Below are positions 22,464-33,545 of a DNA stretch of 64,000 bases, in pieces (positions within the stretch are counted from its first letter, which is position 1; each line of letters starts with the position of its first letter). The position numbers and the translations under genes were made by a program. This stretch comes from Halorarum salinum (GTDB lineage: Archaea; Halobacteriota; Halobacteria; Halobacteriales; Haloferacaceae), in the NCBI RefSeq assembly GCF_013402875.1, contig NZ_CP058580.1, positions 1 to 64,000 on the forward strand. The letters are read 5' to 3'. The notes under the pieces are model-generated. The model ran no database searches. It was not told the DNA's origin and saw nothing but the letters and a program-made list of their open reading frames with translations.

Positions 22464-22489
22464 CTGGCGTGTGTGGGGGCGCCCAGCCC

Positions 22490-22564
22490 ATATAGTTCCA
22501 CCTGTCACTCGCAACCACCGAACGCCCGGGCGACGCCCCGGGTCGGGCGCAGGAACCTTTTTGA
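22490..22564. promoter_or_regulatory. Divergent promoter pair (acyl-CoA dehydrogenase and amidase)
   Basis: The minus-strand TATA-like box is at 22490-22498. The plus-strand box, CCTTTTTGA, is at 22556-22564. Each is about 28-31 nt from its start codon. The 124-nt gap could carry a shared regulator site, though I see no clear palindrome. Confidence 0.5.
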
Positions 22565-22587
22565 CCCGGTCGCCCGCCCCTACGGTC

Positions 22588-24027
22588 GTGACGGACGTAC
22601 ACGTACTCTCCGCCGCCAGACTCGTCCGCGAGATCCGCGACGGCGACCGCTCGCCGGTCGTGGTCGTCGACGCGCTGCTCGACCGCATCGAGGCCCGCAA
22701 CGACCGGACGAACGCGTTCGTGACCGTCACCGCCGACCGGGCCCGTGCGGCCGCCCGCGAGGCCGGGCGCGCCGTCGAGGAGGGACGGTCGCTCGGCCCG
22801 CTCCACGGCGTCCCGGTCGCGGTGAAGGACCTCGACGACGTCGCCGGCGTGCGAACGACGTTCGGCTCCCGGCTGTTCGAGGACGACGTCGCCGACGAGG
22901 ACGACGAGTTCGTGCGACGGCTGGAGGCGGCCGGCGCCATCGTCGTCGGCAAGACGAACACGCCCGAGTTCGGCCTCGGCTGTACGACGGACAACCTCGT
23001 CGTCGGGCCGACCGGCACCCCGTTCGACCCCTCGCGGATCGCCGGCGGCTCCTCGGGCGGCGCGGCCGCGGCGCTGGCCGACCGACTCGTCCCGCTCGCG
23101 CAGGGGTCGGACACCGGCGGCTCGATCCGAACGCCCGCGTCCTGCTGTGGCGTGTTCGGCCTCAAGCCCTCGTTCGGGCGCGTCCCCCGCATGAACCGGC
23201 CGAACGCCTTCGCCGACCACACGCCCTTCTCGCACACCGGTCCGATGGCCAGGACGGTCGCGGACGCGGCGCTGATGCTCGACGTGATGGCCGGCCCGGA
23301 CCCCGGGGACCCGTTCAGCCTCCCGTCCGACGACGCCGACTACGTCGCTGCCACGGAGCGACCGGTGGACGGAATGCGTGTGGCCTACAGCCCCGACCTG
23401 GGCATCTACCCGGTGGAACCGGCCGTCCGGGAGGTCGTGGACGAGGCGGTCGGGGCGCTGGCGGACGCGGGCGCGACCGTCGAGCGTGCGGATCCGGACG
23501 TCGACTGCGAGCGGGGGGACGTCCTCGACGCCTTCTACGCGTTCGCCAAGGTGCGCTGGGAGTCGCTGTTCGACCACCTGGAGGAGCAGGGGCTGGACCC
23601 GCGGGGGGCGGACCGGGAGAAACTCCGGCCGGTCACCGTCGAGACCATCCTCGAGAGCGACCCGGTGACGACCCGCGAGTACAAGCGCGCGGACGTGACC
23701 CGGACGACGGTGTACGAGGGCGTCGTCGACCTCCTCCGGGAGTACGACCTGCTCGTGACCCCGACGCTCGGCGTCGAGCCGTTCCCGCACGGCGAGCACC
23801 CGACCGAGGTGGACGGCGTCGCGGTCGAACCGCTCCGGGGCTGGCTGCTCACCCAGCCGTTCAACTTCTCCGGCCATCCGGTCGGGGCGGTCCCGGCGGG
23901 GCTCTCCGCGGACGGCCTCCCGGTCGGGATGCAGGTCGTGGGCCGCCGGCACGCGGACGCGGACGTGCTGGCGGCGAGCGCGGCGGTGGAGCGGGAGCGC
24001 CCCTGGGCGGACGACTACCCGGCCTGA
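22588..24027 (+). CDS. Amidase (amidase signature family)
   Basis: This protein has about 479 residues. It has the Ser-cisSer-Lys triad of the amidase signature family: Lys in VAVKDLDDV, the Gly/Ser-rich GGSSGGAAAA segment, and the serine in GSDTGGSIRTPA. It hydrolyses a carboxylic amide to acid and ammonia. GatA is another member type, but no GatB/GatC neighbours are present, so a catabolic amidase is more likely. I chose the GTG at 22588 because the family N-terminus (LSAARLVREI) follows at once and a TATA-like box lies about 28 nt upstream. The gene diverges from an acyl-CoA dehydrogenase and is followed by FAH copy 3. Confidence 0.9.
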   Translation: MTDVHVLSAARLVREIRDGDRSPVVVVDALLDRIEARNDRTNAFVTVTADRARAAAREAGRAVEEGRSLGPLHGVPVAVKDLDDVAGVRTTFGSRLFEDDVADEDDEFVRRLEAAGAIVVGKTNTPEFGLGCTTDNLVVGPTGTPFDPSRIAGGSSGGAAAALADRLVPLAQGSDTGGSIRTPASCCGVFGLKPSFGRVPRMNRPNAFADHTPFSHTGPMARTVADAALMLDVMAGPDPGDPFSLPSDDADYVAATERPVDGMRVAYSPDLGIYPVEPAVREVVDEAVGALADAGATVERADPDVDCERGDVLDAFYAFAKVRWESLFDHLEEQGLDPRGADREKLRPVTVETILESDPVTTREYKRADVTRTTVYEGVVDLLREYDLLVTPTLGVEPFPHGEHPTEVDGVAVEPLRGWLLTQPFNFSGHPVGAVPAGLSADGLPVGMQVVGRRHADADVLAASAAVERERPWADDYPA

Positions 24028-24130
24028 GTCGTCGACTCCCGGACGTTCCTCGCCGCAGTTCCGGCCCTCGACTGCGCCGACGCAAAGCTATATGCCGGCT
24101 CGCACCTCCGGTCCGGGCGAGGTACCCGAG

Positions 24131-24928
24131 ATGCGACGAGTCCGATTCAGGGACGACGGTGGATCAGTACGACGGGGCGAGTGGACCGACGACGACGTGA
24201 TCGAGTTCGGGGGCGAGGCGTACGACCCCGGATCGGTCGACGTCCTCCCCCCGGTCGAACCGACGAAGATCGTCTGCGTGGCCGCGAACTACGTCGAGCA
24301 CATCAAGGAGGCCGGCCGGAGCATCCCCGAGGACCTCCCGCCGCGCCCCGGCTTCTTTCTCAAGGGCCCGAACGCGGTCGCGGGCCACGGCGACACGGTG
24401 AAGCTCCCGACCCCCGCGGTGACGCCCGAGGAACTGGCCGGCCGCGAGAAGGGCGACATCGAACTCGGGCGGGGACGAATCGACTACGAGGGCGAGTTCG
24501 GCGTCGTCATCGGCGAGCAGTGCCGGAACGTCCCCGAGGAGGACTACATGGACGTGGTCGCCGGGTACACCTGCGTGAACGACGTGTCGAACCGCGACGA
24601 CCAGGACGCGGAGCGGAACTGGGTGCGCGGGAAGGCGTTCGACACCTCCGCGCCCCTCGGCCCGGTGCTCGCGACGCCCGACGAGGTGCCCGAGCAGCCG
24701 CGGGTTCGGCTCTGGCTGAACGGGGAGAAGCGGCAGGACTCGGACGACGACGAACTCGTCTTCCCCGTCGGCCGGGCCGTCAGCGACGTCTCCCGGTTCC
24801 TCACGCTGGAACCCGGCGACGTCGTCGCCATGGGCACCACCGTCGGGGTCGGGCCGCTGAGCGACGGCGACCGCGTCGAGATCGAGGTGGAGGGCGTCGG
24901 ACGGCTCGAACACGACGTCGAGGCCTGA
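24131..24928 (+). CDS. Fumarylacetoacetate hydrolase (FAH) family protein, copy 3
   Basis: This 265-residue protein is closely related to copy 1. The N-terminus MRRVRFRDDGGSVRRGEW parallels it, followed by the core KIVCVAANYVEHIKEAG, GHGDTV, YEGEFGVVIGEQ, YTCVNDVSNRDDQ and GDVVAMGTTVGVGPL. An extra segment of about 20 residues (PAVTPEELAGREKGDIELG) is inserted before the metal-binding strand. An alternative ATG lies 13 codons upstream, but the start at 24131 matches copy 1. A TATA-like GCTATATGC (24087-24095) lies about 40 nt upstream, giving a short leader. The shared DDQ loop suggests copies 1 and 3 act on similar substrates. Confidence 0.88.
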   Translation: MRRVRFRDDGGSVRRGEWTDDDVIEFGGEAYDPGSVDVLPPVEPTKIVCVAANYVEHIKEAGRSIPEDLPPRPGFFLKGPNAVAGHGDTVKLPTPAVTPEELAGREKGDIELGRGRIDYEGEFGVVIGEQCRNVPEEDYMDVVAGYTCVNDVSNRDDQDAERNWVRGKAFDTSAPLGPVLATPDEVPEQPRVRLWLNGEKRQDSDDDELVFPVGRAVSDVSRFLTLEPGDVVAMGTTVGVGPLSDGDRVEIEVEGVGRLEHDVEA

Positions 24929-25041
24929 CGGCGGCGCGGGGAACCCGGATTCGGCCGCGGCAACCCCCGTTCGTCCCGCCCGTTCCGTCCGGGCGTTGCC
25001 GACGTGCAAACGCTTTATCCGACCGTGTGCTAGGGTGACCC

Positions 25042-25779
25042 ATGAACGATGGCGCGGACGGCGAGGCGCTGTTCACGAGCGGGGTACTGGCCGCGGCGGA
25101 CGGCGTGGCGACGACGTCGGCTGACTTCGAGTCGGCCGTCGACGGCTACCTCGATGAGGTGGCGGGGCTAGACCGCGGGGGTCTCGCCGACCTCGTCGGC
25201 GGCCGGGTCGACCGGCCGGCGGTCGTCGACCCGCTCGCGGCGCTCGGCGCCGAGGATCCCCGGACCGTCGCGGAACTGTGCGCGCTCGCCGACTTCCTGA
25301 CCACGGAACCGACCCCGGAGGGGGACGACGCCGGTCGGTCGTCCGCCGACGCCGGGGGCCCGCCCCGCGACTGGCTGTCGCTGCTCCCCGTGTTGCGGCT
25401 GTTCCGCCCCGTCGAGACGCCGACCGAGGGGGTCCCCGACCCGTTCGTCCCGGTGCCTGCCGCCCACGTCCCCCACCTCACCCGGGTCTTCTCGCCCGCC
25501 GTCGTCTACGTCTGGCTGGACGACTGCGACCCCTGCGAGACGGTGAAGGCCGACCTCGAGTCGGTCTTCGAGTCGCCGCGCGAGGTGATGCCGTTCGCCG
25601 TGTACGGCCCCGACCACCGGGAGTTCCTCGCCGAGGAGTACGAGGTGACCGCCGGGCCGGTCGTGCTGTTCGTGCGCGACGGCGCCGTCGACTCCCGGCT
25701 CTACGGCGCCCAGGGCCCACGGAGCATCGAGACCGAGCTGGACGTTCTCCGGGAGTCGACCCCTCGACCGGCGCGATAG
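25042..25779 (+). CDS. Thioredoxin-like protein with CxxC (CDPC)
   Basis: This protein has 245 residues. The C-terminal third is a thioredoxin fold: AVVYVWLDDCDPCETVKADLE carries a CxxC pair near residue 167, and VTAGPVVLFVRDG contains the cis-proline region. The first roughly 130 residues are acidic, helical and unrecognised. No signal peptide is seen, so it is probably a cytosolic disulfide reductase or chaperone-like protein. The TATA-like CGCTTTATCC (25011-25020) sits about 27 nt before the ATG. It precedes the ABC transporter operon but ends 162 nt before it. Confidence 0.75.
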   Translation: MNDGADGEALFTSGVLAAADGVATTSADFESAVDGYLDEVAGLDRGGLADLVGGRVDRPAVVDPLAALGAEDPRTVAELCALADFLTTEPTPEGDDAGRSSADAGGPPRDWLSLLPVLRLFRPVETPTEGVPDPFVPVPAAHVPHLTRVFSPAVVYVWLDDCDPCETVKADLESVFESPREVMPFAVYGPDHREFLAEEYEVTAGPVVLFVRDGAVDSRLYGAQGPRSIETELDVLRESTPRPAR

Positions 25780-25863: not shown

Positions 25864-25944
25864 ATGACCATCGCAGACGCCAGTATCTACGGTTTCCCCG
25901 ACGGACGTGAACGAAACGGTGCCGGCCGCCACCGAACCAGATGA
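25864..25944 (+). CDS. Possible 26-residue leader ORF coupled to the ABC permease gene
   Basis: An ATG at 25864 opens a short frame (MTIADASIYGFPDG, then an arginine-rich end) whose TGA overlaps the permease ATG exactly as ATGA. It lies about 12 nt after the predicted transcription start. I recognise no family. It may be a leader peptide that couples translation to the permease, or chance. Coding cannot be proved from this sequence. Confidence 0.35.
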   Translation: MTIADASIYGFPDGRERNGAGRHRTR

Positions 25945-26846
25945 GCGTCGCGAACAGACTCCGGAACGTCGGCGACGGCGACTTCGGCGTCGTGGTCAGG
26001 CGGACCATGCGGAACCTGCTCCGCGAGCGGATCACGAAGGTCGCGTTCGTCTGCCTGCTCCTCGTCCTCCTCACCGGGCTCGTGGGGCCGGCGATCGCGC
26101 CGTACGACTACACGGAACAACAGCGGACCGACGACGGACAGCTGAACAGGTACGCCCAGCCGTCGCTCGACCACCCGCTCGGAACCAACGACCGCGGCGA
26201 GGACGTGCTCTCGCGGCTGCTCGTCGGGGCGCGGATGACGCTCATCACGGGGCTGCTGGCGGGGAGTCTCATGCTCACGATCGGCCTGTTCGTCGGCGTG
26301 ACGGCCGGCTACGTCGGCGGGCGGACCGAGAGCCTGCTGATGCGCTTCGTCGACTTCATCTACGGCATCCCGTTCATCCCGTTCGCCATCGTGCTCATCA
26401 CGTTCTTCGGGGCGGGCTTCTACACGACGATCGCCATCATCGGGCTGGTGCTGTGGCGGTTCATCGCGCGGGTCATCCGGTCGCAGGTGCTCCAGATCAA
26501 GCAGCGGCCGTACATCATGGCGGCGAAGGCGTCGGGCGCCAGCACGCCATGGATCATCCGCAAGCACATCCTACCAAACATCGCCAACATGGCCGCGCTG
26601 TTCTTCGCCATGGGCGTGGGGCTGGCCATCCTCGAACAGGCCGGCCTCTCGTTCATCGGCGTCACCGACCCGTTCACGCCGACGTGGGGGATCATGATCC
26701 GCAACGCCCACCAGTCCGGCCGGGTCGCCGAGGCGTGGTGGTGGTCGTTCCCGCCGGGGATCATGATCTCGCTGACCGTGCTGTCGCTGTACCTGCTCGG
26801 CCGGGGCTACGAGGGCGCCGGCGGGGAGGACGAGGTGGTGGTCTGA
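25941..26846 (+). CDS. dppC: Peptide/nickel-type ABC transporter permease (DppC-like)
   Basis: This 301-residue membrane protein begins with a cytoplasmic helix and TM1 (VAFVCLLLVLLTGLVGPAIAP), followed by an extracellular loop and HPLGTNDRGEDVLSRLLVGARMTL, which is characteristic of DppC/OppC. Four or five more hydrophobic spans follow. The EAA loop that contacts the ATPases is MAAKASGASTPWIIRKHILPN. It pairs with the DppB-like permease at 29024-30025. The gene order here, C-D-F-B-A, differs from the usual A-B-C-D-F. One base separates it from the ATPase gene downstream. The substrate is not predictable. Confidence 0.9.
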   Translation: MSVANRLRNVGDGDFGVVVRRTMRNLLRERITKVAFVCLLLVLLTGLVGPAIAPYDYTEQQRTDDGQLNRYAQPSLDHPLGTNDRGEDVLSRLLVGARMTLITGLLAGSLMLTIGLFVGVTAGYVGGRTESLLMRFVDFIYGIPFIPFAIVLITFFGAGFYTTIAIIGLVLWRFIARVIRSQVLQIKQRPYIMAAKASGASTPWIIRKHILPNIANMAALFFAMGVGLAILEQAGLSFIGVTDPFTPTWGIMIRNAHQSGRVAEAWWWSFPPGIMISLTVLSLYLLGRGYEGAGGEDEVVV

Positions 26847-26847
26847 G

Positions 26848-27891
26848 ATGACCGAACCGATACTGGAGTTCGACGGGGTCGACGTCGAGTACGAGACGCG
26901 CGGCGGCACCGCCGTCCACGCGGTCAACGACGCGACGTTCGCGATCGAGGAGGGCGACTACTTCGGGCTGGTCGGCGAGAGCGGCTGCGGGAAGAGCACC
27001 ATCGCCGACGCCGTCGTCGGCGGCCTCGACGAGAACGGCGCCGTGACCGGCGGGACGATCCGGTTCAAGGGGACGGAGATCCAGGACTACTCCGAGAAGC
27101 AGTTCAACAGGGAGATCCGCTGGAAGGAGATCTCGGTCATCCCCCAGTCGTCGATGAACAGCCTCGACCCGGTGATGAAGCTGAGCCAGCAGGCCGCCGA
27201 GATGGCGAAGTACCACACCGACCTCTCGAAGGCCGAGGCGGTGGACCGCCTCCGGGAGCTGTTCGACGTGGTGGGCCTGTCCGAGTCGCGCATCCACGAC
27301 TACCCCCACCAGTTCTCCGGCGGGATGCAACAGCGGGCCATCATCGCGTTCTCGCTGTTCCTCCGGCCCAGCCTCATCATCGCGGACGAGCCGACGACGG
27401 CGCTGGACGTCATCATGCAGGACCAGATCCTCGACCACATCAACGAGCTGAAGGACGACTGGGACATCAGCATGCTGCTGATCACCCACGACATCTCGGT
27501 CGTCTTCGAGAACTGCGACTCGATGGCGGTGATGCACGGCGGGCAGGTCGCCGAGGCGGGCGACGTCGTGGAGCTGTTCGACCGACCGCGCCACCCGTAC
27601 GCAATCCTGCTCCAGAAGGCGTTCCCCGACGTTCGCTACCCCGACCGCGAACTGGCCGTCATCGACGGCCACCCGCCACAGCTCCGGGAGAAGCCGGACT
27701 TCTGCACGTTCGCGGACCGGTGCCCGTGGTCGACCGCGGAGTGCTACGACGGCGCCCCCGACCCCCGACCGGTCGAGGGCGACGACGACCACCTGGCGTG
27801 GTGTGTCAGGGCCGACGAGATGGAGGAACTGGCCGCCGAACACCTGCGGAAGCCGCCCGAGGAGACGAGCATCCTGAAGGGGGGACGATGA
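26848..27891 (+). CDS. dppD: Peptide/nickel-type ABC transporter ATPase (DppD-like)
   Basis: This 347-residue protein has a Walker A motif GESGCGKST at about 45-53, a QxxxS-containing segment with PQSSMNSLDPV, signature FSGGMQQR, Walker B LIIADEPTTALD and switch histidine ITHD. The C-terminus has the oligopeptide-transporter extension with a cysteine-containing motif (DFCTFADRCPW... WCVRADE), typical of DppD/OppD and sometimes bound to Fe-S. Its stop overlaps the start of the second ATPase (ATGA). The two ATPases would form a heterodimer that powers import. Confidence 0.93.
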   Translation: MTEPILEFDGVDVEYETRGGTAVHAVNDATFAIEEGDYFGLVGESGCGKSTIADAVVGGLDENGAVTGGTIRFKGTEIQDYSEKQFNREIRWKEISVIPQSSMNSLDPVMKLSQQAAEMAKYHTDLSKAEAVDRLRELFDVVGLSESRIHDYPHQFSGGMQQRAIIAFSLFLRPSLIIADEPTTALDVIMQDQILDHINELKDDWDISMLLITHDISVVFENCDSMAVMHGGQVAEAGDVVELFDRPRHPYAILLQKAFPDVRYPDRELAVIDGHPPQLREKPDFCTFADRCPWSTAECYDGAPDPRPVEGDDDHLAWCVRADEMEELAAEHLRKPPEETSILKGGR

Positions 27892-29027
27892 GCGACGACG
27901 CGCCGGTCCTGGAACTCCGCGGGCTCGAGAAGCACTTCGACACCTCGACCGGCCTGGTCGACGTCGTCAGAACCCGGCTCGCCGGGGGGGACCCGTCGTA
28001 CGTGAAGGCCGTCGACGGCGTGGACATGCAGTTACGGGAGAACCAGGTCCAGGGCGTCATCGGCGAGTCGGGCTGCGGGAAGACGACGCTGCTCCGGACG
28101 CTCATCGGGCTCTACGAGCCCACGGACGGCGAACTGCTGTTCCACGGCCGGCCGACCTCGGAGTTCACGAAAGAGGAGTGGACGGAGTTCCGCCGCCAGG
28201 TCGGCATCGTCTTCCAGGACCCGTTCAACTCGCTGGACCCGAAGTTCAGCGTCCGCCGGACGCTCGCGGAACCGCTCGAGATCCACGGGATCGACTACGA
28301 CCTGGCTCGGATCGAGGAGATGCTGGAGTCGGTCGGGCTGACTCCGGCCGGGAAGTACGTCGGCCGGTTCCCGAACCAGCTCTCCGGGGGCGAGAAACAG
28401 CGCGTGGCCATCGCCCGCGGGCTCATCACCGAGCCGGACGTCGTCCTGGCCGACGAGCCGGCGTCGATGCTGGACGTCTCGACCCAGGCGGAGATCCTGA
28501 ACCTGCTGAACCGGCTCACCGACGAGTTCGGCGTCTCGATGGTGTACATCTCCCATGACCTCTCGACGGTGTCGTACATCTGCGACCGGATCAACGTGAT
28601 GTACCTCGGCCGGGTCGTCGAGGAGGCGCCGACGCGACGCCTGCTGGCCGAGCCGAAACATCCCTACACGCGAGCGCTCATCCAGTCCATCCCCATCCCG
28701 GACCCGCACTACGAGCGCGAGCGGGCGGTCATCGGGGGCGAACCCGGCGACCCGATCAACATGCCGACGGGCTGTCGGTTCAAGAACCGTTGCCCCGAGC
28801 GGATGGACGTGTGCGACCACACGCCGTACGACGTCTCGACGGAGGGAGACGAGGACCGGACGGTGGCGTGTCACCTGTACTACGACCACCCGACCGACGG
28901 GACCGACGCGTCGGCGTCGGCGGACGGGACGGCTGCGGACGGCGGAACGACGCCCGCCGGGGGCGGACCCCCGGCGGGCGACCACTCACCGGCCGTGTCC
29001 GGAACCACCGGAGGTGGGTCAGAATGA
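27888..29027 (+). CDS. dppF: Peptide/nickel-type ABC transporter ATPase (DppF-like)
   Basis: This 379-residue protein has Walker A GESGCGKTT, the FQDPFNSLDP segment, signature LSGGEKQR, Walker B VLADEPASMLD and switch YISHD. It then has the DppF-type C-terminal extension GCRFKNRCPERMDVCDHTPY with spaced cysteines. The last roughly 40 residues are a Gly/Ala/Ser/Asp-rich low-complexity tail, unusual for the family. The ATG at 27888 overlaps the preceding stop. The start codon of the next permease overlaps its TGA, and a GGAGGTG site inside its last codons would serve that permease. Confidence 0.93.
   Translation: MSDDAPVLELRGLEKHFDTSTGLVDVVRTRLAGGDPSYVKAVDGVDMQLRENQVQGVIGESGCGKTTLLRTLIGLYEPTDGELLFHGRPTSEFTKEEWTEFRRQVGIVFQDPFNSLDPKFSVRRTLAEPLEIHGIDYDLARIEEMLESVGLTPAGKYVGRFPNQLSGGEKQRVAIARGLITEPDVVLADEPASMLDVSTQAEILNLLNRLTDEFGVSMVYISHDLSTVSYICDRINVMYLGRVVEEAPTRRLLAEPKHPYTRALIQSIPIPDPHYERERAVIGGEPGDPINMPTGCRFKNRCPERMDVCDHTPYDVSTEGDEDRTVACHLYYDHPTDGTDASASADGTAADGGTTPAGGGPPAGDHSPAVSGTTGGGSE
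29010..29016 (+). promoter_or_regulatory. Shine-Dalgarno site for the DppB-like permease
   Basis: GGAGGTG lies 7 nt before the ATG at 29024, inside the end of the ATPase gene. It supports re-initiation on a polycistronic mRNA. Confidence 0.6.
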
Positions 29028-30025
29028 GCCGACTCCGTTACTTCGCCCGGCGCACGGTCATCACGGCCGTGCTCATCTTCCTCGTGGCGTCGGCGCTGTT
29101 CGTGTTCTTCCGGCTGATGCCGGGCGACTACTCGTCGCTGCTCGTCCAGCAGGGGATGACCGCCGAACAGGTCGCTCGCCAGGAGGCGAAGTGGGGGCTG
29201 AACGAACCGTTCCACCAGCAGTACATCAACTACGTAACCAACTTGTTGACGGCCGACGCCGGCGTGTCGTTCCGGCACGGCACCCCCGTCTGGGCGCTCG
29301 TGAAGCCGCGCATCATCAACTCCGCCATCCTCGTGTTCCCGGCGATCACGGCGACGTACGTGATCGGGAGCCTGCTCGGCGCCGTCATCGGCCGCTACCG
29401 CGGGGGGCTCTTCGAGAAGTCCAGCATCGTCACCGTCTCGGCGTTCCACTCGATCCCGGACTTCTTCCTCGGCATCCTGCTGATCGCGGCGTTCTCCTCG
29501 ACGCTGGGCATCTTCCCCACCTCGGGGATGCTCTCGACCCAGACGTCGATCATGATCCAGGACGAACCGTTCTGGCACCGGTTCCTCCTGAAGGAGTTCT
29601 GGATGCACTACGCGCTGCCGTTCGCGACCATCACGCTGTACTTCATGCAGTACCCGGCGCTCATCATGCGCAACAGCGTCGTCGAGGTGAGCGACCAGGA
29701 GTTCCTCCACTACCACCGCCTGAAGGGGCTCCCGCGCGGGAAGCTGCTCCGAAAGCTGATGCGGCACGCGTCGCTTCCCGTCGTGACGCTGTACCCCATC
29801 TCGCTGGCGACCTCGATCAGCGGGCTCGTCCTCATCGAGATCGTGTTCAACTGGCCCGGCATCGGGCGCCTGCTCGTGGACTCCGTGCTGGCCCGCGACT
29901 TCCCGGTCATCCAGTTCGTGTTCCTCGTGGCGGCCGTCTGGGTCATCCTCGGGAACTTCGCCGTGGACCTGCTCTACGGCGTCATCGACCCCCGCGTCTC
30001 CGTCGCCGGCGACGAGGGGGAGTAA
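29024..30025 (+). CDS. dppB: Peptide/nickel-type ABC transporter permease (DppB-like)
   Basis: This 333-residue membrane protein has a first TM (TVITAVLIFLVASALFVFFRLMPGDY) carrying the DppB hallmark after which RLMPGD occurs. The EAA loop is HYHRLKGLPRGKLLRKLMRHASLP, and the C-terminus ends with LLYGVIDPRV, as in family members. About six TM segments are visible. It partners the DppC-like protein encoded at the start of the operon, while the two ATPases lie between them. The binding protein follows after 176 nt with its own promoter. Confidence 0.92.
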   Translation: MSRLRYFARRTVITAVLIFLVASALFVFFRLMPGDYSSLLVQQGMTAEQVARQEAKWGLNEPFHQQYINYVTNLLTADAGVSFRHGTPVWALVKPRIINSAILVFPAITATYVIGSLLGAVIGRYRGGLFEKSSIVTVSAFHSIPDFFLGILLIAAFSSTLGIFPTSGMLSTQTSIMIQDEPFWHRFLLKEFWMHYALPFATITLYFMQYPALIMRNSVVEVSDQEFLHYHRLKGLPRGKLLRKLMRHASLPVVTLYPISLATSISGLVLIEIVFNWPGIGRLLVDSVLARDFPVIQFVFLVAAVWVILGNFAVDLLYGVIDPRVSVAGDEGE

Positions 30026-30201: not shown

Positions 30202-32016
30202 ATGCCATCAAGTGGCAGAGAGAGCGGCGACCGTCGGGTCGACCGGCGGCGAGTGTTACAGACGATCGGCGTGGCGTCCGCCGCGGCCCTCGCGGGGTGT
30301 GGCGGCGGCGGCGGGAACGGCGACGGAAACGGGGGCGACGACACCGACACCCCCGGCGGCGCGGCGGACCTCGGCGAGCGCGTGCCCACGCTCACGTTCC
30401 AGTACTGGTCCGACCAGGGGCCGCCGACGGTGCTGTTCGAGGAGACGATCTCGAACGTCCAGGCCCGCACCGGCGAGATGGGGTTCGACATCGAGACGAT
30501 GCCGATGACGACGGCGGAGGGGCTCGATTCGGTGGCCAACGACAACCGTGATTTCCACATCGCAGTGAACAGCCACGGGCCGTCGCCGGGTCGACTCGAC
30601 CCGAACGAGCTGTTGACCAACTACAGCATCGACTTCGCGGGCGCCGACGGCAACTACAACCCCGCGAACTACGCGAGCTGTGAGTTCTCCGACCCCGCCG
30701 CGCGGCAGGCGACGGTGGGCGACCCCGACGAGCGGCGTCAGGTGGTCGGCGAGGCCATGAGCGTCTTCTCGGAGGACCTCGCGTTCATCCCGACGATCGA
30801 GCGGCCGACGACAGCGGCCATCAACACCGACCAGATCCAGTCGATCGAGGCCGGCGCGGCGGGGCTGACGGACACACACTGGGCGGCGCTCGTCGAAGCC
30901 GGCGTGAGCGCGCAGAGCGGCACCGACGCGGTCGTCGCGAACCTGCCGTCCGAGCACCTGACGAGCAGCTTCTACCCGACCGTCGCCGACGGCGACTCGA
31001 TGGGGCTGTACACGAGCCTGACCCACTCGCCCCTGCTCATGTACGACTCCAACTACGAGCTAACCCCCGTCCTCGCGGAGGACTGGGAGACGTCCGACGA
31101 CGGGACGTCCACGACGTTCAACCTCCGTCAGGCGACCTTCCACAACGGCGACCCGGTGACGCCTGAGGACGTCAAGTGGACGTACGAGTTCCTGAGCGAG
31201 CAGTACCACGCGGGTAACTACCAGTGGACCAACCTCCCGGAGGACCTCACCGTCGAGATCGTCGACGATAGCACGGTCAGCTTCAACACGGAGAACCCGG
31301 CGCCGACGCTGTTGACCGCGAGCCTCTCGATCTACGGCGTCCTGCCGCGGGACCCGTACGTGAACGCCGGCATCGAGGACAGCCCGACCGACTTCGAGGA
31401 CCCGATGATCGGCGCGGGGCCCTACCGGATCACCGCGTACAACAACCAGCAGAACATGCAGCTCGAACCGCACGACGGCCACCCGGTCTACAGCCCGGAC
31501 ACCCAGATCCTGCTGCAGCTGTACGACAGCACGGACGGCGTGACGCGGGCGTTCCAGAACGGGGAACTCAACGTCGCGGTGGCGATCCACCCCGAGGCCG
31601 GCCAGCAGCTCCAGGACAACATGGGCGGGAACGTCCAGATCATCTCGGGCGTGGCCCACCTCCCGTTCGGGATCATGCCCCAGCAGTCGTTCGCGCCGGG
31701 GATGTTCCCCGAGTTCCGACAGGCGCTCTCGCACATGGTCGACCGGCAGAACCTCAACGAGACGTACGCGTTCGGGGAGTCGCAGGTCGTCACCCACGCG
31801 ACGTTCAACTCTCAGGAACACCCCTGGTACAACGAGGAGGTCCTCACACAGATCGCCGGCGAGAGCGCCGACGTCGAGCAGGCGAAGCAGGTGCTCGAGG
31901 ACGCAGGCTGGGGCTGGGACGACGCCGGCAACCTCCACTACCCCCAGGACGCCAGCATGGAGGCCTGGCCGCAGGGGGAGGAGCCGAGCCCCGACGACTT
32001 CCCCTGCCTCGGCTGA
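30202..32016 (+). CDS. dppA: Family 5 extracellular solute-binding lipoprotein (DppA-like), apparently circularly permuted
   Basis: This 604-residue protein has a Tat-type signal (RRVDRRRVLQ) ending in lipobox ALAGC with Cys33, and a Gly/Asp-rich linker to about residue 55. Residues 61-235 look like the C-terminal part of ordinary DppA proteins: MGFDIETMPMTTAEG, DFHIAVNSHG, and DERRQVVGEAMSVFSEDLAFIPTIE. Residues 241-583 look like the N-terminal and middle parts: LTPVLAEDWETSDDGTSTTFNLR, ATFHNGDPVTPEDVKWTYEF, IGAGPYRI, ALSHMVDRQNL. The protein stops at EQAKQVLEDAGW, just where a normal family member would continue into the segment found here at the N-terminus. This is read from known family order, without alignment. 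Function should be substrate capture for the DppBCDF-like importer. Confidence 0.85.
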   Translation: MPSSGRESGDRRVDRRRVLQTIGVASAAALAGCGGGGGNGDGNGGDDTDTPGGAADLGERVPTLTFQYWSDQGPPTVLFEETISNVQARTGEMGFDIETMPMTTAEGLDSVANDNRDFHIAVNSHGPSPGRLDPNELLTNYSIDFAGADGNYNPANYASCEFSDPAARQATVGDPDERRQVVGEAMSVFSEDLAFIPTIERPTTAAINTDQIQSIEAGAAGLTDTHWAALVEAGVSAQSGTDAVVANLPSEHLTSSFYPTVADGDSMGLYTSLTHSPLLMYDSNYELTPVLAEDWETSDDGTSTTFNLRQATFHNGDPVTPEDVKWTYEFLSEQYHAGNYQWTNLPEDLTVEIVDDSTVSFNTENPAPTLLTASLSIYGVLPRDPYVNAGIEDSPTDFEDPMIGAGPYRITAYNNQQNMQLEPHDGHPVYSPDTQILLQLYDSTDGVTRAFQNGELNVAVAIHPEAGQQLQDNMGGNVQIISGVAHLPFGIMPQQSFAPGMFPEFRQALSHMVDRQNLNETYAFGESQVVTHATFNSQEHPWYNEEVLTQIAGESADVEQAKQVLEDAGWGWDDAGNLHYPQDASMEAWPQGEEPSPDDFPCLG

Positions 32017-32372
32017 GCGGGCCTTCGGGACGGGAACGGCACCCGGTCGTCGCGACGGGATCGGCCCGACTCCCGCCGCTAGCCGCCCGCCTGCTACCGG
32101 TCACACGGGAAGGCGGCTGTCGGGAACCGCTCGACTGCGGGCCCACACGACCCTCGCTCGCGCGGTGAACCGCCTCGGGCGCGGAGGGGGCTGCGAGGGG
32201 GCATTTGATATAGCGACATGAGATTCATCCGTCGGAGATTGGCCGTGAACGGCGGTGTCGGGTCCCAACGAGGCCGATATCGGCCGTTCGCGCCACCGCG
32301 CCAGTTCACCCGGTTGTAATCGAATACAACCAAGTGGTTATTTGTGGGTCGCCGCCCTCGGGGGAGCACGAC
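32017..32372. promoter_or_regulatory. Intergenic region between the binding protein and the recombinase gene
   Basis: No gene is credible in these 356 nt. An AT-rich element TTTGATATAG (about 32203-32212) could be a promoter with no evident gene. A near-perfect palindrome at 32312-32331 and a TATA-like GGTTATTT (32336-32343) form the recombinase promoter region. Confidence 0.5.
32312..32331. promoter_or_regulatory. Palindromic operator candidate overlapping the recombinase promoter
   Basis: GGTTGTAATCGAATACAACC pairs at nine of ten positions around its centre. It ends five bases before the TATA-like box at 32336-32343, so a bound protein would block or recruit TFB. The ATG lies 41 nt downstream of it. 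Confidence 0.55.
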
Positions 32373-33545
32373 ATGGCCACCTCGGACACGAACGGCCCGG
32401 ACCAGGGGGAACCCGCCATCCGGCGGCTGGTCGACGACTTCCTCGCCTCGAAGGAGGAGCGGGGCTCGGGGGCCTACGCCGCGAGCGCGGCCTCGGTGCT
32501 CGATCGGTTCGTCGACTGGCTGGGGGCACGCGACCGGACCCTCGCGGACCTGGACGACGACCGCCGCGGCCCGCAGGTCATGCGCGCGTACGCGAAGCAC
32601 CTCCGTCGCCGGGCGACCGCCGAGGACGGCATCTCCGCGTCGACGGCCAACACCTACTACGCGTACGTGTCGGGCTGTCTCGGGTACGGGGTGCGGGACG
32701 TGGCGCTCTCGCGCAACCCCGCGCGGACCGAGGCGGCGCGCGAGGAGCTCCCGGCCATCGAGGGAAAACGCTCGGACCAGCAGTTCTGGTCCCGAGAGCA
32801 GCGCGAATCGCTCCTCGATCACGCCCGGGCGCGCGCCGGTGACGCCATAGTGGCCGAACCGTTCGAGGCGTACGCGGAGACGCGGGACCACGCGCTCGTG
32901 GCCGTGCTCGCGTTCGCGGGCGTCAGGGGTGCCGAAGTGCTCCGCCACCGGAAGGACGACCGCCGGGGGAGGGACGGCCTCCGGTGGTCCCGCGTGGACC
33001 TCGAAGCCGGCACGATGGAGGTGCTCGGCAAGTCGAAGACCGAGGGGAAGCGGTGGCAGCACGCCTCCCTGCCGGGCCCGGCGCGGGAGGCGCTCGGGAC
33101 GCTCTACCGGGTCCAGCGCCCGCCCGTCGACGACTGGCCGGTGTTCGAGTCGAGCCACGCCCCCTCGCTGTGGGCTCGCGCGCGCGAGGAACTGGAAGGT
33201 CGCGGCGAGTCGGTGGAGACGCTGGTGGCGGCACGCGGTGACGTCCGCGAACTGCTCCGGGCCGAGCGCGTCGCCCCGCCCGCGCTCACGACCGACGGCG
33301 GGCGATCCGTCCTCCGCAGGCTCACGGGGGGGGCGGACGTCGACCCCCCGGACGGCGCCGACTACCTCGAGCCGCACGGCGCCCGTCGGGGCATCGGCGA
33401 GGAGCTCTACCGGATCGACCGGGGGCTCGCACAGGACCTGCTCCGCCACGAGGAACTGTCGACGACGCGGGACCACTACCAGCACATCGACGCGGCCGAG
33501 CGCACGCGCGAGATCGACGCCGAACTGGAACGGATCGGGGAGTAA
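32373..33545 (+). CDS. Tyrosine recombinase / integrase (XerC/D-like)
   Basis: This 390-residue protein has an N-terminal SAM-like core-binding domain (AIRRLVDDFLASKEERGSG, STANTYYAYVSGCLGYG) and a catalytic domain. Candidate active-site residues are Arg in FAGVRGAEVLR, Lys in GKSKTEGKR, the HxxR motif in EPHGARRG, His in LRHEELS and the nucleophile Tyr in TRDHYQHID. All six positions look present, so it should be active. The ATG at 32373 is favoured by the TATA-like box about 33 nt upstream. It stands alone, with no visible att repeats or tRNA gene beside it, so it may act in chromosome maintenance or be left from an element. Confidence 0.85.
   Translation: MATSDTNGPDQGEPAIRRLVDDFLASKEERGSGAYAASAASVLDRFVDWLGARDRTLADLDDDRRGPQVMRAYAKHLRRRATAEDGISASTANTYYAYVSGCLGYGVRDVALSRNPARTEAAREELPAIEGKRSDQQFWSREQRESLLDHARARAGDAIVAEPFEAYAETRDHALVAVLAFAGVRGAEVLRHRKDDRRGRDGLRWSRVDLEAGTMEVLGKSKTEGKRWQHASLPGPAREALGTLYRVQRPPVDDWPVFESSHAPSLWARAREELEGRGESVETLVAARGDVRELLRAERVAPPALTTDGGRSVLRRLTGGADVDPPDGADYLEPHGARRGIGEELYRIDRGLAQDLLRHEELSTTRDHYQHIDAAERTREIDAELERIGE

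Follow-up and report, generated by a model that had tools for sequence, protein, structure and literature searches.

A haloarchaeal family 5 solute-binding protein with its two parts in circularly permuted order

Does the gene at 30202-32016 (plus strand) of the window, the 64,000-nucleotide stretch of Halorarum salinum DNA analyzed here, encode a working importer receptor whose chain has been cut and rejoined in another order? Its product is a lipoprotein of 604 aa, homologous to the family 5 solute-binding proteins (SBPs; SBP_bac_5, DppA-like), which rank with the commonest importer receptors of prokaryotes. The initial annotation had proposed that the usual C-terminal segment (residues 61-235) stands at the N-terminus of this protein, that the usual N-terminal segment (residues 241-583) follows it, and that the result is a functional permutation and not debris.

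The chain has the following layout, all on the plus strand. The protein starts with a Tat-like signal peptide and a lipobox (RRRVLQ...AALAGC with Cys 33; 30202..30300; RRRVLQTIGVASAAALAGC), which stay N-terminal despite the permutation. A low-complexity Gly/Asp spacer (aa 34-56; 30301..30369) connects the lipid anchor to the folded domain. The first segment (aa ~57-236; 30370..30909) is the homologue of the last third of a normal family 5 SBP, the second (aa ~243-585; 30928..31956) that of its first two thirds, and the boundary between the two homologous stretches (aa 237-242; 30910..30927) marks the junction of the old C-terminus with the old N-terminus. The second segment ends after the helix EQAKQVLEDAGWGWDDAGNLHYP, and a short tail of residues 586-604, with the stop codon (31957..32016), provides the new C-terminus. 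Along the chain, the lipobox is followed by MGFDIETMPMTTAEG and DERRQVVGEAM within the first 240 residues, and then by LTPVLAEDWE and FHNGDPVTPEDV. The motifs quoted in the initial annotation, including the lipobox, thus occur in the order given there, and its segment boundaries agree with the junctions found here at residues ~57, 236/243 and ~585.

Searching the whole protein with Pfam yielded SBP_bac_5 at 161.8 bits (gathering cut-off 32.4), covering only profile positions 1-285 of 368, at aa 286-577. The second segment matches the start of the profile, as expected, whereas the first segment, which when searched alone should have matched its end, gave no match at E<=1. As Pfam is blind to the first segment of this member, a profile of normal order and profile-profile comparison were required. 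The former was built from 37 family 5 members of normal order and spans 522 positions. In the whole protein, positions 7-43 of this profile matched the signal peptide region at aa 13-49, 379-499 at aa 81-209 (37.5 bits) and 53-364 at aa 251-575 (163.8 bits), so that 379-499 comes before 53-364, the reverse of the canonical N-to-C order. The first segment alone scored 41.5 bits (E 3.6e-15, taken as a single comparison), compared to a maximum of 4.7 bits among 500 shuffled plus reversed controls, and the second scored 165.7 bits. Correspondingly, hhalign aligned 78 N-terminal segments to positions 377-524 of the normal-family template, which has 540 positions (probability 99.7%, E 9e-27). For two sister genes in the H. 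salinum genome, the swap is visible with Pfam alone, as profile positions 287-366 and 287-362 lie upstream of 3-288 and 5-287, respectively. The C-terminal third of the SBP_bac_5 fold is accordingly present in the window protein, at its N-terminus, and the chain ends, as had been claimed, at the junction where a normal member would continue, shortly after the Pfam match stops at profile position 285. Judged by sequence, the order is permuted beyond chance, the two pieces are complementary, and the window protein is a permuted homologue rather than a canonical member of SBP_bac_5. Neither a normal order of the parts nor an unrelated origin of the N-terminal segment, the two outcomes that would have spoken against the proposal, was found.

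Structure prediction was in line with the expected fold. The full-length model is compact (pTM 0.75, mean pLDDT 76), with pLDDT <50 for residues 1-53. Its residues ~235-585 matched residues 1-~345 of AppA, NikZ, DppA, NikA and many other family 5 SBPs (Z 20-23), and all structural matches of this core, among those listed, were family 5 SBPs. Compared with DppA, the second segment covered residues 1-344 (Z 20). The first segment folded alone (pLDDT 69, pTM 0.61) matched NikZ 326-459 (Z 7.5), DppA 339-505 (Z 6.0) and AppA 347-516 (Z 5.6); the alignment used as input for this model contained normal C-terminal segments, and Z scores of 5.5-7.5 are middling. In these models, the two segments together are predicted to cover DppA almost fully and nearly without overlap, the first alone matching family 5 SBPs at about residues 326-505. 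A mixed alignment that contained split normal proteins misplaced the C-terminal pieces and was for this reason left out of structure prediction. Among the best 60 PDB sequence matches for a bacterial homologue, there was no permuted member with a solved structure. The sequence evidence for the permutation is independent of both structure models.

The missing Pfam match of the first segment would also be expected if a truncated SBP had been fused behind an independent domain or behind the degenerate remains of another SBP copy. Against such a fusion, the profile, hhalign and structure matches all assign the segment to just the C-terminal stretch that the core lacks, and the pieces are complementary in the members classified as type-1, none of which carries both ends. 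We regard a domain fusion as highly improbable.

We also considered the surroundings of the gene. Directly upstream, and on the same strand, lie genes for a DppC-type permease (25941..26846; Pfam BPD_transp_1 and OppC_N), a DppD-type ATPase (26848..27891; ABC_tran and oligo_HPY), a DppF-type ATPase (27888..29027; ABC_tran and oligo_HPY) and a DppB-type permease (29024..30025; BPD_transp_1 and BPD_transp_1_N), and the claim of a complete adjoining Dpp set thus holds. Further upstream of the importer, an amidase (22471..24027; Pfam Amidase), an enzyme of the fumarylacetoacetate (FAA) hydrolase family (24092..24928; Pfam FAA_hydrolase) and a thioredoxin-like gene form a block on the plus strand (22471-25779). 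The thioredoxin-like gene, which precedes the Dpp genes, was named from the annotation of its Halobaculum halophilum counterpart, as its product had no Pfam match. A similar cluster, in which the amidase, the FAA hydrolase and the thioredoxin-like gene are kept, surrounds the 79% identical orthologue on an H. halophilum plasmid. This block may point to uptake and breakdown of an amide-type compound. The window protein reached only 26.9 bits with the NCBIfam equivalog DppA_dipep (cut-off 1005); no substrate is therefore assigned to it, and 'DppA-like' is a description of its fold only. Importer genes also adjoin the permutants of Maritalea and Nitratireductor and two sister genes in the H. salinum genome.

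Compared to its orthologues in Halobaculum, Halorussus and Halorubrum, the gene has dN/dS ratios that range from 0.17 to 0.33 over the first segment and from 0.17 to 0.51 over the core, and both pieces are under purifying selection. This bears on the reading as a local rearrangement or pseudogene, in which two fragments of a broken SBP came into frame by chance. The window protein is indeed longer than a normal member and odd in its order, and an integrase gene lies 300 bases downstream (32334-33545). Against chance breakage stand the purifying selection on both pieces, an unchanged order in proteins from Halorussus, Halorubrum, Halobaculum and Haloprofundus that are 65-79% identical, and the identical breakpoint of bacterial members at ~25% identity. 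Since the order is conserved across phyla, we consider a pseudogene refuted, with next to no probability left to it. The conserved order and the selection on both pieces support the proposal of a functional permutation, and the topology of the window gene is an old and inherited one.

The explanation we favor, with a probability of roughly 90%, is that the window protein is a working, circularly permuted SBP, an importer receptor with relocated termini. It would serve as the membrane-tethered ligand receptor of the adjoining Dpp-type ABC importer and would adopt the fold usual for family 5 (cluster C) SBPs, with the old ends of the mature domain fused to each other. The new termini would have arisen in the loop that follows the AKxxLExAG helix, at about residue 340 of DppA, which we take to lie inside domain III in the textbook numbering. 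Export, lipid anchoring, capture of the solute between the lobes, closure and docking on DppB/DppC would presumably proceed as in normal SBPs, and in haloarchaea the lipid tether would extend from the lobe bearing the new N-terminus. Duplication, fusion and trimming are the standard route to circular permutations; here, a tandem gene duplication may have been followed by fusion and by loss of the flanking regions, while the signal peptide stayed in place. No tandem-fused intermediate with both ends was found among the classified members.

How far is this cut shared? The genome of H. salinum has ten SBP_bac_5 genes: four with this cut (the window gene, L002, L003 and L010), one with another cut (L043) and five of normal order. 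A permuted match spanning both segments occurred in at least 94 of the 194 Halobacteria genomes sampled. In the rest of the phylum, the matches listed cover the core only, the pattern of a normally ordered protein, and L085 alone clearly departs from it. The permuted form was also present in 12 of 385 Alphaproteobacteria, in 4 of 300 Bacilli genomes (the other six listed match the core only) and in 2 of 296 Actinomycetota (a third match being core only). When the retrieved permutants were re-examined with the normal-order profile, every permuted call held, and normal controls, e.g. from Roseovarius, were read as normal order. The viral contigs searched contained no relative. Many Halobacteria have this cut; in Bacteria it is rare but real and occurs in three phyla. 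The initial annotation had asked whether the order is shared and how old the change is; the answer is partial and concerns the sharing, which is wide among Halobacteria and reaches these phyla.

Did all permuted family 5 SBPs descend from a single event? Trees were built on the core region and are thus blind to the order of the parts. In the FastTree tree, the window protein, the bacterial permutants and other permuted proteins, 70 in all, formed a clade without any normal member (support 0.94). A haloarchaeal group of eight members of ~650 aa stood apart in this tree; joining it to the main clade was not rejected (AU p 0.58), it shares the motif HGPxPxR(G)LDPN with the window protein, and it was counted in the main clade on both grounds. 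A quick unconstrained IQ-TREE tree placed the long-branched normal protein L050 inside the main permuted clade. Constraining the main clade gave a better tree under the same model (p 0.94; a later test, with p 0.33, did not reject it either); as the quick search had missed better trees, the analysis went straight to constrained searches and AU tests. The tree groups were named after the first trees had been seen, so all AU p-values given here are only indicative.

Two further sets of permutants bear on the number of events. L085 (4821-6563, minus strand) comes from a non-haloarchaeal archaeon of the same phylum and is permuted in a similar way. It lies in a DppBCDF operon of its own, and in place of a lipobox it has a membrane anchor at the C-terminus (PGF...RRRR). 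The four haloarchaeal SBPs at L071:2959-4629 (minus strand), L084:2962-4605, L086:2959-4617 and L090:2959-4713 (minus strand) are cut ~25 residues earlier, such that an AKxLLEEG helix lies at the new N-terminus. A single event, with cuts that differ through later shifts, would fit the ~650-aa group, whose joining is not rejected, and the four earlier-cut proteins, whose joining with the main clade is borderline (p 0.077). It fits poorly with the tests in which one clade of all type-1 permutants (p 0.0002) and the grouping of L085 with the main clade (p 0.005) were rejected, and with a permutant of only the last 50 residues that nests among normal-order orthologues at 57-64% identity. One event for all permutants is improbable: the trees reject a single origin, and family 5 has been permuted more than once. 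The four earlier-cut proteins possibly represent a third independent permutation.

The last-mentioned permutant, L043 (= L182; C1:3065358-3067229, or L043:787-2658), resides in the same genome as the window gene. It keeps the lipobox, directly after whose spacer the last ~50 residues (REGYLQRANLHVHEQAPWGFLNRQYSVYGQSDDIEWEPRVDERI) follow, and its chain ends where they would start. This second cut was found in 13 haloarchaeal proteins (L182 to L193, plus L209). In L194, L195 and other close orthologues (57-64% identity), the same piece of ~50 residues is C-terminal, i.e. in normal order, and permease and ATPase genes adjoin the second-cut and the normal-order orthologues alike. The tree of this group needs four topology changes, at least two of which are forced by strongly supported branches. 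L209 groups with the normal-order L211 (100/98 support), and a single clade of second-cut proteins was rejected when L209 was included (p 0.002), but not without it (p 0.138). These findings suggest that this one site has been permuted repeatedly, has reverted or has recombined. Taken together, circular permutation in family 5 is probably recurrent, tolerated and perhaps adaptive, with at least three independent events at two or more, and likely three, cut sites, of which one would be old and span Archaea and Bacteria and another would have arisen within one haloarchaeal orthologue group.

The known receptors set this case in context. As in DppA, OppA, AppA and NikA (SBP_bac_5, PF00496), both chain parts of the window protein are homologous to the family and the predicted lobes match, and the signal peptide, the lipobox and the Dpp-type permease and ATPase partners are likewise those of family 5 (cluster C) SBPs. 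In contrast to these, its C-terminal third stands in front, the former ends are linked and the new ones lie at about DppA residue 340. L043 resembles the window protein in being a permuted family 5 SBP with a retained lipobox and an adjoining importer operon; it differs in that only the last ~50 residues have moved and in that permuted and normal forms coexist at ~57-64% identity. Circular permutation of an SBP is already known from TpMglB-2 (Tp0684) of Treponema pallidum and its relatives, glucose-binding SBPs for which the label 'cluster Bc' was proposed and which still bind their ligand despite the permutation (PMC4990184). Like the window protein, TpMglB-2 is a natural permutation of an ABC-importer SBP that is common to a clade. 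Unlike it, TpMglB-2 is by description a bacterial protein with a cluster B, MglB-like fold, and different parts have moved, as strands of the MglB N-terminal region lie near its C-terminus. TpMglB-2 is thus the nearest precedent, albeit from another fold cluster; the family 5 case is apparently new, as searches of the open-licence literature yielded no earlier report of permuted family 5 SBPs, though subscription journals may hold one.

The authors of the TpMglB-2 study linked its permutation possibly to tethering (PMC4990184). By the same reasoning, the permutation studied here could have been selected because it moves the lipid anchor to another lobe, and a lipobox is indeed kept at the new N-terminus of the haloarchaeal and Bacilli members. 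Such selection is unlikely in view of several alphaproteobacterial members, which have a plain signal peptide without a lipobox, and of L085, which is anchored C-terminally; these unanchored bacterial members and the C-terminal anchor of L085 indicate that tethering is not a shared requirement.

For the working permuted receptor that we favor, a practical consequence lies in annotation. The profiles for family 5 assume one order, and since the Pfam and NCBIfam models match mainly the second part of the permutants, which are labelled simply 'ABC transporter substrate-binding protein', annotation does not show their topology. The natural permutants, which differ in their cuts and include orthologues at ~60% identity in both topologies, permit tests of which loops in a two-lobe receptor tolerate the termini, of whether the position of the anchor matters for docking and of how circular permutation arises and becomes fixed. 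They also offer natural templates for biosensors made from permuted binding proteins. A very common nutrient-binding protein has apparently been re-cut several times by evolution, with no sign of breakage.

Two minor observations concern the gene and its relatives. The gene 300 bases downstream of the SBP (32334-33545, plus strand) is tyrosine-recombinase-like, its Pfam Phage_integrase match falling just below the cut-off, and an integrase also lies downstream of the H. halophilum orthologue, two genes after the SBP. Furthermore, a comparison that drew on L001, L002, L121, L178 and L066-L088 showed an RxDP-type motif (e.g. RLDPN or RLDPD) in most of the main-clade permutants inspected, at a place that in some normal members reads DxGDPD. 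In the permutants, the motif sits in the first segment, and it may be the mark of a different ligand.
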